A stretch of 64,000 bases of DNA from Acidobacteriota bacterium (GTDB lineage Bacteria > Acidobacteriota > Vicinamibacteria > Vicinamibacterales > UBA2999), in the NCBI GenBank assembly GCA_016184455.1, contig JACPCS010000136.1, positions 29,065 through 93,064 of the forward strand. The letters are read 5' to 3'. Shown here in pieces: positions 18,050 through 23,769 of the stretch. Position numbers and translations under genes: made by a program. The number at the start of each line of letters is the position of its first letter. The stretch's first letter is position 1. Under the pieces are notes generated by a model. That model ran no database searches. It saw only the letters and a program-made list of their open reading frames with translations, and was not told where the DNA came from.

Positions 18050-18110
18050 GGTGTCTAGCTTACCCCGACTGTCGCAGCAGCGCCCCGCGACCGATAAGAG
18101 AGGCGGATTC

Positions 18111-19445
18111 GTGGACGAGAGCACTCTGACCGCCCGGCGCCCTGCCGCCGCCATGACACGGTCTGATCCGACCCCGGACGAGGAAGCCCGTTTTCGGACG
18201 CTGGTGCAGTCGCCGCTGCGCGCGGGCCTGCTGCGGTTCCTGCACGCCCGCACCGGGGAGGGCTTCGACGTCGATTCGCTGATGGCCGTGTTCGGCCGGA
18301 TGCGCGGCGACGTCGACAACTGCCTCGCGGAGCTGGTCGACTTCGGCGTGGTCGCGCGCGTGCCCGGCCCGCCGCCGCGGTACGCCGCCAAGCGGCCCGA
18401 TCATCCCGAACGCGGGGAGCTCCTCGATCAGTTCCTCGAGCGGCGGGCCGCGATCAGCGCCGAGGACCAGGCGCCGTCGGTGCAGCGGTTCCGGGAAATG
18501 ATCGGCCGCGACGAGAAGATGCTGATCGTCTTCGAGTGGATCCGCACGGCGGCCAAGTCGGACATCTCGGTCCTGATCCTCGGCCCGACCGGTTCGGGCA
18601 AGGAGGTCGTGGCCCGGATGATCCACGAGCTGAGCCGCCGCGGGAAGGAGCGCTTCCAGGCGGTCAACTGCGCCGCGCTGCCCGACACGCTGTTCGAATC
18701 GGAGCTGTTCGGGTACGAGAAGGGGGCCTTTACCGGCGCGCACGATCGCAAGCCGGGCCGCCTGGAGCTGGCCGACCGCGGGACGCTCTTCCTCGACGAG
18801 ATCGGCGACCTCTCGCTCGTCGCGCAGGCCAAGCTGCTGCGCGCGCTGGAAGATCGCCGCTTCGAACGCCTCGGCGGCCAGAAGTCGGTGCACGTCGACT
18901 TCCGCCTCATCTCCGCCACGAACCGGCCCCTCGACCTGTTCGTCCGCGATGGCCGCTTCCGCGAAGACCTGTATTACCGGATCAATGCGTTTGCGATCCG
19001 GCTGCCGTCGCTGCGCGAGCGCCCGATCGATATTCCCGTCCTCGCGTCGCGCTTTCTGGCGCGCTACTGCACGGCGAACGGCCTGCCGCTCGACGCCAAG
19101 GTGTTCTCCACCGAAGCGATCGCGCAGCTCCAGGCGTATCCATGGCCGGGCAACATCCGCGAGCTCGAGAGCACGGTGTCGCGCGCCGCCCTCTCGGCGC
19201 CCGGACGCATCATCCGCGGCAACGACGTGGAGTTCCTGCACGAGCACGCCGCGCACGAGGCGTTTGCACCGCCGCGCCTGCCGACGCTGCGCGAAGCGGA
19301 GCGGGCCCATGTCGTACGCGTCCTCGAAGCCACCTCCTGGAACAAGAAGGAGGCGGCACGGATCCTCGAGATCAGCCGCGGCACGCTGTACCGCAAGATC
19401 GTCGAGTACGGCCTCGACGACCCGAAGCGGTCGCCCGGGGCGTAA
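18111..19445 (+). CDS. Sigma-54-dependent transcriptional activator without receiver domain
   Basis: 444 aa from GTG 18111, which has AAGAGAGG eight bases upstream; ATG 18153 is an alternative. Residues ~25-95 look like a winged-helix or small sensor segment (SPLRAGLLRFLHARTGEGFD). A full AAA+ core follows with Walker A GPTGSGKE, the sigma-54 loop GAFTGA, Walker B LFLDEIGD and the arginine-finger region FREDLYYRINAF. The C-terminal Fis-type helix-turn-helix is NKKEAARILEISRGTLYRKI. No sigma-54 promoter was found nearby. Divergent from the dhs operon. Confidence 0.9.
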   Translation: MDESTLTARRPAAAMTRSDPTPDEEARFRTLVQSPLRAGLLRFLHARTGEGFDVDSLMAVFGRMRGDVDNCLAELVDFGVVARVPGPPPRYAAKRPDHPERGELLDQFLERRAAISAEDQAPSVQRFREMIGRDEKMLIVFEWIRTAAKSDISVLILGPTGSGKEVVARMIHELSRRGKERFQAVNCAALPDTLFESELFGYEKGAFTGAHDRKPGRLELADRGTLFLDEIGDLSLVAQAKLLRALEDRRFERLGGQKSVHVDFRLISATNRPLDLFVRDGRFREDLYYRINAFAIRLPSLRERPIDIPVLASRFLARYCTANGLPLDAKVFSTEAIAQLQAYPWPGNIRELESTVSRAALSAPGRIIRGNDVEFLHEHAAHEAFAPPRLPTLREAERAHVVRVLEATSWNKKEAARILEISRGTLYRKIVEYGLDDPKRSPGA

Positions 19446-19688
19446 CCCCTTCGCCCATCCTGAGGCGCTCCCCCCGGCGAAACCCATCGGTGTTACATTT
19501 CTGCCTCCCGATCCGTCGATTGGCTGTGCAGTTTCCGCACATTCGCTGCGCACGGCTGCACCGCCCCCGTTACAACCTCCGCGTCGATCGCAGGCTGGAA
19601 GATGCTGACGTTCAACACGTTACGACGGTTGGCGACGGCGGCCGCAAACCTCGGCAATATTCTTGCCCCCGGCCCGACGGCTCTCTCT

Positions 19689-21722
19689 ATGACCAAACAG
19701 ACTTTCGCCTGCCAGGCACGAATCGCGCTGCTCCTCGTGCTCGCGCTCGCCCTTCTAGGGCCGGCGCGCGCGGGGGCGGACCCCACCCCGCAGACCAAGC
19801 TCGATCGCGTGCTCCAGGCGCGCTCGCAGCAGCTGACCGGGAGCTCGCGCGTGATCGTCCAGTTCCACGGGGCTGCCGATGCCCGAGTGGTCACCGGGAG
19901 CGGTGGGCGGCCGGGGCGGCCGCTGCCGTCGGTGGGTGCGCTCGTCGCCGACGTCGACAACCGGACCATCGCCGGCCTGGCGGGCAATCCGCAGGTCGCG
20001 TGGATCCGCACCGACCACCCCGTCTTCCCCACGCTCGAGCGGACCGGCGCCGCAATCGCCGCCACCGTCGCGCGCGAGACCTACAACCTGACGGGCAAGG
20101 GCATCGGCGTCGCGGTGATCGATTCCGGCGTCACGGCCTGGCATGACGACCTGTACATGGCCGACTCGCGGTCCGGGCGTGCCGAGCCACGTGTCGTGCA
20201 CTTCAAAGATTTCACCGCGCAGCCCCATCCAAATGTCTGGGCGTCCGAGCAGCCGATCGACGAGTTCGGCCACGGGACGCACGTCGCGGGCATCATCGCG
20301 GGCAACGGCTACGACTCGGACGGCGCGCGGACCGGCGTCGCCCCAGGCGTGCACCTCGTGGCGCTCAAGGTGCTCGATGCGCAGGGCTTCGGCTACATCA
20401 GCGACGTCATCGCGGCCATCGACTACGCCATCGCGATCAGAGACACCTACAACATCCGCGTCATCAATCTGTCGGTCGCCTCCGGTGTGTTCGAGTCCTA
20501 TGCCACCGATCCGCTCGCGCTCGCGGCGCGCCGCGCCACCGAAGCGGGGATCGTCGTCGTGGCGGCCGCCGGGAACCTCGGCGTGGATGACAACGGCGAG
20601 CCGCTGTACGGCGGCATCACGTGTCCGGGCAACGCACCGTGGGTGCTGACCGTCGGCGCAGCGAGTCACCAGGCAACGGCGGCGCGGAGCAACGACACGT
20701 TCGCCCGCTTCAGCTCGCGAGGTCCGACCTGGATCGATCTTGCCGCCAAGCCGGATCTCATCGCGCCCGGCGTGGGCACCGAATCGCTCTCGGACCCGCA
20801 AAGCACGCTGTATGCGACTTATCCCGACTACCTCCGCGACGGCACCCGCAACACGGCCTACAAGCCGTACCTGAGTCTCAGCGGGACGAGCATGGCGGCG
20901 CCCGTCGTCACCGGCACCGTTGCGCTGATGCTCGAGGCCAATCCCGACCTGACCCCGAACGCGGTCAAAGCCATCCTGCAGTACACGGCGGAAGTGCGCG
21001 AGGGAGAGCCGTTCCTCGCCCAGGGCGGCGGGCTGCTCAACGCGCTCGGTGCCGTGCGGATGGCGCGCTTTTTTGCGAAACCGCAGCGAGGGGTCCCGAC
21101 GCCCGACGACGTCATCGAACAAGAGCCGATCGCCTGGAGCGAGCACATCATCTGGGGGAACTACCGCATCGGCGGCGGCATCCCGCTGCCGGGCAGCAAC
21201 GCATGGGCGCTCGACGTGACGTGGGGCACGGAGGCAACCGCGGCCGGCGATCCGATTGTCTGGGGCGTGGTGATCCCGGGACGACAGCTGTGGACCACGC
21301 AAAACGGCAACGCAGCGGCCGCGAACATTGTGTGGAGCACGAACGCCGATCCTGACGCGGTGCGCGGCACGAACATCGTCTGGAGTACCAGCGCTGACGA
21401 TGCAGGCGTGCGCGGCGCCAACATCGTCTGGAGTACGAATGCGGACGACTCGACGGTCCGCGGCGCGAACATCGTCTGGAGTACGAATATCGTCTGGAGC
21501 ACCAACATCGTCTGGAGCACCAACATCGTCTGGAGCACCAACATCGTTTGGAGCACCAACATCGTTTGGAGCACCAACACCATCTGGGGCACCAACATCG
21601 TCTGGAGCACGCAGACCGACGACGACATCGTGTGGACCGCTGGAGGCGTGGATCAGGTTCTCTGGCCGGCGGTGCAGCCCGTCGATGCTCGGCGCAGGGC
21701 TGCGGCGACCGGAACCCACTGA
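19689..21722 (+). CDS. Secreted subtilisin-like (S8) serine protease with C-terminal NIVW repeats
   Basis: 677 aa from ATG 19689, giving a clean signal peptide (ARIALLLVLALALLGPARAGA); the ORF track starts 29 codons earlier and neither start has a good Shine-Dalgarno. An inhibitor-I9-like propeptide is followed by the triad Asp in GVAVIDSGV, His in HGTHVAGIIAG and Ser in LSGTSMAAPVV. After the catalytic domain (to about residue 470) comes a Trp-rich tail built from NIVWST units: three 16-residue repeats and then eight hexapeptides. The tail could be a beta-solenoid or a surface-attachment module; no known sorting signal is seen. Confidence 0.92.
   Translation: MTKQTFACQARIALLLVLALALLGPARAGADPTPQTKLDRVLQARSQQLTGSSRVIVQFHGAADARVVTGSGGRPGRPLPSVGALVADVDNRTIAGLAGNPQVAWIRTDHPVFPTLERTGAAIAATVARETYNLTGKGIGVAVIDSGVTAWHDDLYMADSRSGRAEPRVVHFKDFTAQPHPNVWASEQPIDEFGHGTHVAGIIAGNGYDSDGARTGVAPGVHLVALKVLDAQGFGYISDVIAAIDYAIAIRDTYNIRVINLSVASGVFESYATDPLALAARRATEAGIVVVAAAGNLGVDDNGEPLYGGITCPGNAPWVLTVGAASHQATAARSNDTFARFSSRGPTWIDLAAKPDLIAPGVGTESLSDPQSTLYATYPDYLRDGTRNTAYKPYLSLSGTSMAAPVVTGTVALMLEANPDLTPNAVKAILQYTAEVREGEPFLAQGGGLLNALGAVRMARFFAKPQRGVPTPDDVIEQEPIAWSEHIIWGNYRIGGGIPLPGSNAWALDVTWGTEATAAGDPIVWGVVIPGRQLWTTQNGNAAAANIVWSTNADPDAVRGTNIVWSTSADDAGVRGANIVWSTNADDSTVRGANIVWSTNIVWSTNIVWSTNIVWSTNIVWSTNIVWSTNTIWGTNIVWSTQTDDDIVWTAGGVDQVLWPAVQPVDARRRAAATGTH
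21324..21611 (+). repeat. Coding tandem repeats: 3 x 48 bp then 8 x 18 bp (NIVWST units)
   Basis: Three 48-bp units (NIVWST-NADPDAVRGT type) span 21324-21467, followed by eight 18-bp units (AACATCGTCTGGAGCACC and close variants) at 21468-21611, all in frame in the S8 protease. The middle 18-bp units are identical or nearly so, consistent with recent expansion by slippage. Confidence 0.9.
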
Positions 21723-21840
21723 AAGGACGAAGGTATGAAAACGCGAGTCACGATCATCTGGCTGCCCTGACAGCACCGGATAGGCAGTTTACGCGAATGA
21801 CCACGCGGCCGCTGGCCGCCCGCCTCTATGCGGGCGGCGC

Positions 21841-21940
21841 GCTCGCCGCCGCCGCCGCCGCGGTGGCGGCGTCCGTCTTTGCCCTCTCCGGCTCGCCGCC
21901 GCCGCCGCCGCGGTGGCGGCGTCCGTCTTTGCCCTCTCCG
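21841..21940 (+). repeat. Perfect 50-bp tandem duplication in the 5' end of the HD-GYP gene
   Basis: 21841-21890 and 21891-21940 are identical (GCTCGCCGCCGCCGCCGCCG through GCCCTCTCCG). Because 50 is not a multiple of three, the natural N-terminus from ATG 21797 (MTTRPLAARLYAGGALAAAA) is thrown out of frame, and translation of the long ORF must begin within the second copy. Confidence 0.9.
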
Positions 21941-23766
21941 TCGTCTGGCTCGCCCTCGCAACGGCGGCGCTGCTCGCCCTGACGTTCTGCGCCTGCCGCG
22001 AGGTGATTGCCGACGAGCGGCGCAACGCGCGCCGGATGGTCGAGCTGCATCTGGCGACGATCGAAGCGCTGGCGCTCGCCATCGACGCCAAGGACCAGAC
22101 GACCCCGAACCACATCGGCCGCGTGCAGAGGTACGCGACAGGCCTCGCGTGCGCGATCGGCATGTCGGACACCGAAGTGCAGGCGGTGAAGACGGCCGCT
22201 CTGCTTCACGACATCGGCAAGCTCGCCATCCCGGATCACATCCTCGCCAAGGCCGGGCCGCTGACGCCGGAGGAATTTCAGAAAGTGCGGGTGCACCCCG
22301 AGGTCGGTGCGGAGATCCTCCGATCCGTGCAGTTTCCCTATCCGGTAGTGCCGCTCGTGCTCTCGCACCATGAGCGCTGGGACGGCCGCGGCTATCCAAC
22401 CGGCCTCAAGGAGCACGACATCCCGATCGGCGCGCGCATCATCTGTATCGCCGACTATTTCGAGGCGCTCACCTCGGATCGCCCGTATCACAAGGCGATC
22501 AGTCCGGATGCAGCCGTCGCGGTCGTGAAACAGGAGGCTGGGAAAGCGCTCGATCCGCGGCTCGTCGACGTCTTCCTCGGCATCCTGCCGACGCTGGTGG
22601 TCGAGGAGGACCCGGCGGACTCTGGGCTGGCGAGGTCGTCCGATCTCCAGGCCGGCCGGGGCGTGCGCGCGTCGCGAACCAGGCCCGCTCGGACGCCGCT
22701 GGCGACCGTGTTCGAGAACATCGCGGTCGCGCACCGCGAGATCCATGCGCTCTACGAAATCGCGCAGACCATGGGCACCAGGCTCACGGTGACCGACACG
22801 ATGGCGCTCGTCTCGTCGAAATTGACGAGTCTGGTCCCGTTCTCCGCATGCGCGCTGTTCCTCTACTCCCCCTCGCGCGAACAGCTGCAGTGCCGGTTCG
22901 CAACCGGCACCGATTCGGAGCTGATCCAGCAGCTCACGCTCCGGAGCGGCCAGGGGTTGACCGGGTGGGTGGCGCGGAACCGGCGCCCGCTCGTGAACGC
23001 GCGACCGAGCACGGATCTCGAGGCCATGGGCTCGAAGGCGCCAACCGTGCTGCAGTCGGCACTCGTCTGTCCTCTGGTGTTCAACGATCGCCTCATCGGT
23101 ACGCTCGGCGTCTATCACACGGAGCCGAGCGTCTACGACGACGACCACGCCCGCCTGCTGGACCGGGTGTGCGAGCAGGCGGCCGCCGTCATCAACAACG
23201 CCATCGTCTTCGAGCAGACGCAGGAAGATTCGCTGACCGATCCGCTGACCGCGCTGCCGAACACGCGATCGCTGTTCCAGCACCTCGCGCGGGAGCTGGC
23301 GCGCGCCGAGCGCCACAAGTCGGAAGTGTCGCTCGTGGTGCTGGACCTCGACGACTTCAAGGAGATCAACGACTCGTTCGGACACCGCGTGGGCGACTGG
23401 GCGCTGCGCGAGGTCGCGCGCGTCCTCCGCGGCGCCATCCGGCCCTACGACATGTGCGTCAGGTACGCCGGCGACGAGTTCATCGTCGTCCTCTCCGGCT
23501 GCGGCGGCGGCGAGGCGGAATCCAAGCGGCTCGAGCTCCAGGTGGCGATCGGCCGAATCGTGCTGGACGTCGAATCCGCCGCCCGCCGGCCTCTCTCGAT
23601 CAGCGCCGGCATCGCCGTGTTTCCACACGACGGCGACAACTACGACGCGCTCGTCGCCAAGGCCGACCGTCAGATGTACGAAGACAAGAGCCGCCGCAAG
23701 GAAGAGACGCGGCGGCGCCGCGTCAACGTCGAGCCGCCCGCCCCGGACAGCGCGCCGCTCGTGTCT

Positions 23767-23769
<3 letters not shown>
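21913..23769 (+). CDS. HD-GYP phosphodiesterase / GAF / GGDEF cyclic-di-GMP signalling protein
   Basis: 618 aa from GTG 21913 as the frame stands. One membrane helix (VVWLALATAALLALTFCA) is followed by HD-GYP with LLHDIGKLAIPDHIL and HHERWDGRGYP (c-di-GMP hydrolysis), a GAF domain around residues 270-420 and a GGDEF domain whose signature is RYAGDEFIVVLSG, a functional-looking AGDEF variant. A protein with both synthesis and breakdown domains is probably biased by its sensor. Removing one copy of the 50-bp duplication would restore an N-terminus starting at ATG 21797. The TAG stop is the first triplet of repeat element B. Confidence 0.88.

Follow-up and report, generated by a model that had tools for sequence, protein, structure and literature searches.

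A tryptophan-rich repeat tail of predicted secreted S8 subtilases in Vicinamibacterales and its candidate sigma54-dependent operon

The closest described relatives of the protease considered here are the S8 subtilases with extra C-terminal domains, for example Tk-SP (PDB: 3afg) and fervidolysin (PDB: 1r6v), which likewise combine the S8 fold with an N-terminal propeptide and a C-terminal extension. Subtilases with Trp repeats may also occur in Actinobacteria. Short β-forming units with Asn/Gly/Asp turns, comparable to those predicted for the tail of this protease, are known from curli CsgA, FapC, the RTX repeats and the left-handed hexapeptide helix, and the known sigma54/EBP operons share with its locus a GG-N10-GC site, an upstream palindrome, an adjacent activator gene and rpoN. 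The order from which it comes, the Vicinamibacterales, consists of abundant uncultured soil bacteria in which few secreted systems have been studied. A further parallel is provided by the leaderless communication peptides (LCPs; PMC10518010), among them SIP and others that act through RopB/Rgg receptors; like the micropeptide described below, these are very short leaderless peptides whose genes adjoin those of a secreted protease and its regulator.

The protease and its repeat tail

The window analysed here is a stretch of 64,000 nucleotides (contig JACPCS010000136.1, positions 29,065 to 93,064) from a 4.7 Mb genome of 162 contigs. The following features of the protease gene, numbered from the first letter of the window, are central to the analysis:

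19602..21722, forward strand: intact reading frame of an S8 subtilase with a Trp-repeat tail (ORF list, orthologue alignment)
20094..21008, forward strand: S8 catalytic domain, residues 165-469 (Pfam PF00082, E 2.4e-53)
21099..21278, forward strand: proximal Trp module, residues 500-559, pattern W..IxWGN...AW...WG, predicted to be folded (homologue alignment, AF2)
21324..21467, forward strand: three NIVWST-x10 units of 16 residues each (translation)
21468..21611, forward strand: eight contiguous NIVWST hexapeptides, the seventh being NTIWGT (translation, Tandem Repeats Finder)
21612..21719, forward strand: C-terminal cap QTDDDIVWTAGGVDQVLWPAVQPVDARRRAAATGTH (C-termini compared among orthologues)

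The description of the product as a secreted subtilisin in the initial annotation is borne out by the Pfam S8 match, which scores 181.7 bits against a cut-off of 21.8, by the catalytic Asp, His and Ser motifs VIDSG, GHGTHVAG and GTSMAAP, which were read in the sequence and are invariant or nearly so in the homologue alignment, and by a classical signal peptide, MTKQTFACQARIALLLVLALALLGPARAGA. The latter is directly preceded by an ATG at 19689 that is conserved across 11 orthologous intergenic regions and is probably the true start, rather than the annotated one at 19602, which lies upstream of the conserved promoter site. The AF2 model of the protease matches pro-subtilisins such as 3afg and 3whi, with Tk-SP and fervidolysin among its best PDB matches.

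Translation of 21324-21611, at the C-terminus of the subtilase, yields precisely what had been counted there: three NIVWST units of 16 residues each, then eight hexapeptides in direct succession, of which hexads 1-6 and 8 read NIVWST. The reported near-identity of the 18-bp DNA units likewise holds, with Tandem Repeats Finder detecting a period of 18 (7.9 copies, 90% match) at 21468-21610, besides a period of 48 (2.7 copies) at 21358-21488. Each of the eight hexads keeps the frame, and most differences between them fall at silent third positions, as expected for recent copying combined with selection on the protein. The Trp repeat exceeds this interval, extending from about residue 510 (IAWSEHIIWGN) to residue 688 (QVLWPA), and the Trp-rich region of about 200 residues is twice as long, with 19 Trp in residues 501-706 as against 5 in residues 1-500. 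The Trp residues of the proximal module are invariant (alignment columns W433, W439 and W462), and the QVLWPA..PVDNRRR part of the cap recurs in most close orthologues.

Homologues were recovered from 48 of 59 related genomes, nearly all with tails of about 10% Trp, and the tail is kept from orthologues of about 76% identity down to paralogues of about 40% identity. Of 396 genomes of the phylum, 18 contain a strict triple-NIVW DNA pattern, all of them belonging to the window's own order, while the reversed pattern used as a control matched none, which excludes chance. In a scan of species-representative genomes, the matches listed came almost only from Acidobacteria, including a few Bryobacter- or Solibacter-labelled records, and among these matches the tail is almost confined to the Vicinamibacterales. 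Besides L124, treated below, four matches listed outside the Acidobacteria were discarded or set aside: two with DNA repeats out of frame or in broken or very short frames (L140, L156), one with an S8 tail under an implausible species label (L167), and one labelled "Cyanobacteria" (L148), the counterpart of which (G025:C28) lies in a genome placed in the window's family.

S8 motifs are present in 102 of the 119 distinct tail-bearing reading frames collected, and another 11 are cut at their 5' side. The remaining six comprise L043 and L047 (frameshifted), one masked record, the protease-like L129, in which the S8 motifs were missed by the search expression, L124 and L195. L043 and L047 (C128 and C8) are S8 paralogues of the window's own genome with NIVWGD arrays out of frame with the protease, and the 8-nt irregularity inside the array of L047 could be a slippage scar or an assembly error. 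L195:3873-4367 (forward strand) encodes a free-standing secreted NIVWGT-repeat protein that has no protease domain, and L124:734-1408 (forward strand), in which a NIVWGD array of an Acidimicrobiia MAG is fused to a frame resembling an integrase, is probably a chimera.

Comparison of the tails shows that the feature common to the whole family is [IVL][IVL]W[GS], separated by linkers rich in Asp and Gly. One orthologue (G014) has LLWG as its core, so that what is conserved is a succession of two aliphatic residues, Trp and Gly or Ser, rather than NIVW itself. Close orthologues have decamers such as DNIVWSTGGG, and others have octamers, hexads or 16-mers. Hence the initially proposed regularity of one Trp every six residues does not extend to the family: counted by proteins, a core spacing of 6 occurs in 66, 7 in 1, 8 in 18, 9 in 22, 10 in 73 and 11 in 66, spacings overall being 6 or 8-17, and 10-11 being found as often as 6. 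Put differently, linkers of zero or at least two residues are common and a one-residue linker was seen once. The near absence of 7 between 6 and 8 suggests a strand register, which a disordered chain would not need, and this gap is the best argument for β structure that the sequences alone offer, with the qualification that units within one protein are not independent.

The survey of related proteases recovered between 0 and 17 NIVW-type units per orthologue, with codon variation in NIVW almost solely silent. Linkers are more alike within proteins (identity 0.74) than between orthologues (0.41), indicating that units are homogenised and exchanged and that the tail turns over in length; these figures, together with the 8-nt shift in the paralogue array, show gain and loss of units and agree with the earlier proposal that the length of the tail can change. 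A disordered tail lacking conservation in orthologues, the outcome regarded at the outset as fatal to the proposal, was not what we observed, because the repeat is strongly conserved. The original observation of the tail is thus confirmed and its interpretation in part supported.

Searches of the tail against Pfam (E<=1), NCBIfam and PHROGs returned no matching model, the PDB sequence search gave only a chance sodium-channel match (E 1.7), and the motif turned up in no relevant paper in a full-text literature search. The S8 enzyme class is known; the tail, here termed the VW-repeat tail, as judged from these comparisons, appears to be a previously undescribed and as yet unnamed C-terminal repeat domain of the secreted S8 subtilases of a single bacterial order, the Vicinamibacterales.

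A candidate sigma54-dependent operon and its micropeptide

The genes and sites surrounding the protease are as follows:

18051..19445, forward strand: sigma54-dependent activator (EBP) with Sigma54_activat, AAA lid and Fis-type HTH (Pfam; conserved neighbour in orthologous operons)
19525..19541, forward strand: palindrome TGTGCAGTTTCCGCACA, candidate activator binding site (UAS) (aligned in 11 intergenic regions)
19652..19667, forward strand: CGGCAATATTCTTGCC, sigma54-type -24/-12 site, GG-N10-GC (11 of 11 orthologous regions)
21735..21770, forward strand: micro-ORF MKTRVTIIWLP, between the S8 and HD-GYP genes (conserved, mostly synonymous changes)
21797..23769, forward strand: HD-GYP/GAF/GGDEF (c-di-GMP) gene (Pfam; same-family orthologues downstream of S8)

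Each of the 11 orthologous intergenic regions has a GG-N10-GC site shortly ahead of the conserved ATG, with CGGCA/AGGCA-N6-TTGC in the same position throughout and CGGCA-N6-TTGCC in most. About 110 bp upstream of it lies the palindrome TGTGCAGTTTCYGCACA, which is found at the operon in eight genomes (G000, G001, G003, G005, G010, G012, G013 and G014), each of which has few further copies of it. The activator contains the GAFTGA motif, as read in its sequence, and Pfam detected no receiver domain in its gene. The genome has one rpoN gene, so that the upstream site, the GAFTGA-bearing EBP and the sigma factor of a sigma54-dependent operon are all present. Order-wide, an exact [CT]GGC-N7-TTGC precedes the signal peptide in 41 of 79 tail-bearing S8 genes, as compared with a mean of 1.4 in shuffled sequences and none on the reverse strand. 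Given this excess and the presence of rpoN, the Trp-tailed subtilases across the order look like a sigma54 regulon. Rfam recognised no RNA family in the window or in seven loci examined with it, which indicates that the conserved elements between the genes do not belong to a known riboswitch class.

The gene order activator, S8, HD-GYP/GAF/GGDEF recurs in orthologues of at least 10 other genera, scored where the extent of the contig lets the neighbours be seen. The last gene is assigned to the HD-GYP group by its HD_5/HD Pfam match and by the HHExxDGxGYP motif, which reads HHERWDGRGYP. In the window, a perfect 50-bp tandem duplication at 21841-21940 breaks the frame from the ATG at 21797 in the N-terminal part of this gene, and the intact listed reading frame begins at a GTG at 21913. 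The frame is unbroken at this point in the close relative L048, and the duplication could be a real mutation, phase variation or an assembly error.

The micro-ORF between the two enzymes is preceded by a Shine-Dalgarno-like sequence, AAGGACGAAGG, of a kind usual in the copies of its relatives. Of 59 relatives, 14 have the micropeptide M[RK]TR[VI]TIIWLP, in a total of 15 copies (two of them in G020), as against none in the control. Pairwise codon comparisons gave 310 synonymous as against 159 nonsynonymous differences, with R4 and TIIWL invariant. In one genome (G015) there is no S8 gene between the activator and the HD-GYP gene and the sigma54 site, palindrome and micropeptide all remain, suggesting that the peptide belongs to the activator/HD-GYP unit. 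In another (G014) the peptide MRTRVTIIWLQ stands alongside a tail with the core LLWG, and hence does not track the tail. Both cases weaken the idea that the micropeptide is a direct partner of the tail, and its most likely role is that of a small regulator acting in the cytoplasm on the activator/HD-GYP unit.

Similar single-copy motifs are seen in more distant loci. Three of four distant S8-HD-GYP pairs have MSIVVWG, MQKIIVWD or MTVRHKAVWGF, each followed by a stop codon, at the equivalent position, and at 13 of a further 48 loci a KAVWG-like element runs up to the start of the HD-GYP gene, as compared with a shuffle mean of 0.015. Four or five of these 13 have no in-frame start codon, so that not all of them are clearly peptides. 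At seven loci (L061, L085, L130, L131, L162, L174 and L175) a GNAT acetyltransferase lies directly downstream of, or overlaps, the tail-bearing S8 gene and ends in [KRQ]AVW[GA] plus a few residues. Separately, many distant Trp-tailed S8 proteins have a KAVWG motif just ahead of the signal-peptide core (L062, L064, L065, L093, L096, L112, L152, L181, L183 and others). A speculative and rather improbable extension is that an [AIV][IV]W[G/L] code links the members of the sigma54 regulon, with many copies in the tails and one copy each in the micropeptide, the KAVWG elements and the GNAT C-termini, and that the tails and the single-copy partners, by recognising each other through β-strand addition or by sharing a receptor, would couple protease export to c-di-GMP control.

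Possible structure and role of the tail

Modelled by AF2 from 39 aligned homologues, the propeptide, protease and proximal Trp module come out folded, the last with four short strands and pLDDT of about 73-91. The mixed 16-mer/6-mer repeats of the window's own protein have pLDDT of about 24-34 and no confident fold. Pure hexad arrays, of which 16 were aligned, are modelled as all-β, with pLDDT values of 87.7, 81.1, 75.7, 45.6 and 29.8 in the five models. Foldseek comparison of the hexad model with the PDB gave no match below E 0.06 and none that was significant, its weak matches being largely β-solenoids, including FapC and ice-binding proteins. Over-prediction of solenoids by AF2 is documented for arrays of this class (PMC11795689), and hence, despite the confident hexad model, a β-solenoid tail, as suggested in the initial annotation, is plausible rather than demonstrated. 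As to particular architectures, the Pfam model of the left-handed β-helix hexapeptide, a three-sided solenoid, has no match in the tail at E<=1; RTX repeats (GGxGxDxUx nonapeptides or Pfam) were likewise not found in the tail, the common spacings of which are 6 and 10-11 rather than 9; and no curli or Fap family profile of Pfam or NCBIfam matches it.

The reading that we favour, with a probability somewhat short of even, is that the tail is a β-forming anchor on the cell surface or in the matrix for a sigma54-driven protease, with a link to c-di-GMP and a micropeptide regulator. Each unit would be a short β-strand of two aliphatic residues, Trp and Gly or Ser, and successive strands would be connected by either no linker residues or two or more, rich in Asp and Gly; slippage or unequal exchange would gain, lose and homogenise units, with selection keeping the strand core. 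Sigma54 and the adjacent activator would switch the protease on, the signal peptide would export it, and the tail would stack into a β-rich strip, either a solenoid or amyloid-like, that keeps the enzyme at the cell surface or within the extracellular matrix. The co-transcribed HD-GYP/GGDEF enzyme would tie the protease to a c-di-GMP lifestyle switch, and the micropeptide, with its single strand-like TIIW motif, might act on the activator/HD-GYP part. Against such an anchor stand the low AF2 confidence for the window's own tail and the over-predicted type of the confident hexad model (PMC11795689). The lack of predicted structure in that tail suits a disordered multivalent ligand, in which VW would be a short linear motif for a receptor, repeated for avidity and carried in single copy by the neighbours. 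Less probable than the anchor, this alternative draws on the micropeptide, the MSIVVWG and MQKIIVWD short ORFs, the KAVWG elements directly before HD-GYP starts and the GNAT C-termini, but no receptor candidate is known, some KAVWG elements have no in-frame start, and the gap in spacing at 7 favours a strand register.

An aromatic ladder keeping the protease on carbohydrate or cell-wall polysaccharide could account for the regular Trp spacing, the secretion and the co-location with a c-di-GMP enzyme; it is nonetheless unlikely, since no carbohydrate-binding family was detected with Pfam and NCBIfam and spacings from 6 to 17 do not form a ladder of fixed sugar length. More doubtful still is a multi-copy precursor, from which short NIVWST-like signal peptides would be cut in the manner of repeated pheromone precursors. 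The near-identical units homogenised in each protein, the attached protease and the presence in the genome of a micropeptide resembling the units in its motif would suit such a precursor, but no conserved cleavage site flanks the hexads, the linkers vary in length and sequence, and the micropeptide lacks a signal peptide and is no exact match to the hexads. Least credible, and already disfavoured, is neutral minisatellite expansion at a dispensable C-terminus: the nearly identical 18-bp units, strong length turnover and a frameshifted array in a paralogue of the same genome are of the kind that it predicts, but the core residues are kept with silent codon changes across an order, and the tail is nearly universal in, and confined to, one protein family.

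Comparison with known systems

A tail common to the whole order, a common gene switch and an adjoining gene for an 11-residue peptide together mark an unstudied secretion and signalling system. Among the new leads, the strongest are the predicted sigma54 regulon and the micropeptide, both of which go beyond the original finding; together with the unnamed repeat domain they offer testable handles on the deployment of surface proteases in Vicinamibacterales. The tails also provide a natural setting in which to see whether short strand repeats of Trp and Asn form β-solenoids, a case in which AF2 alone is untrustworthy. With respect to the described systems, the C-terminal domains of Tk-SP and fervidolysin are ordinary folded ones, whereas the extension seen here is a tandem [IV]VW repeat that has no PDB match by sequence or fold. 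Unlike curli CsgA, FapC, RTX repeats and the hexapeptide helix, the tail has a Trp in every unit, variable linkers and an attached protease. The sigma54/EBP operons in the literature searched do not include a regulon of Trp-tailed subtilases. As in the LCPs, a short leaderless ORF is conserved (in 14 genomes), whereas no Rgg/RopB-type receptor gene adjoins it; its neighbours instead are a sigma54 activator and an HD-GYP/GGDEF gene, its phylum is Gram-negative, its sequence is unrelated, and its export and signalling role are putative.
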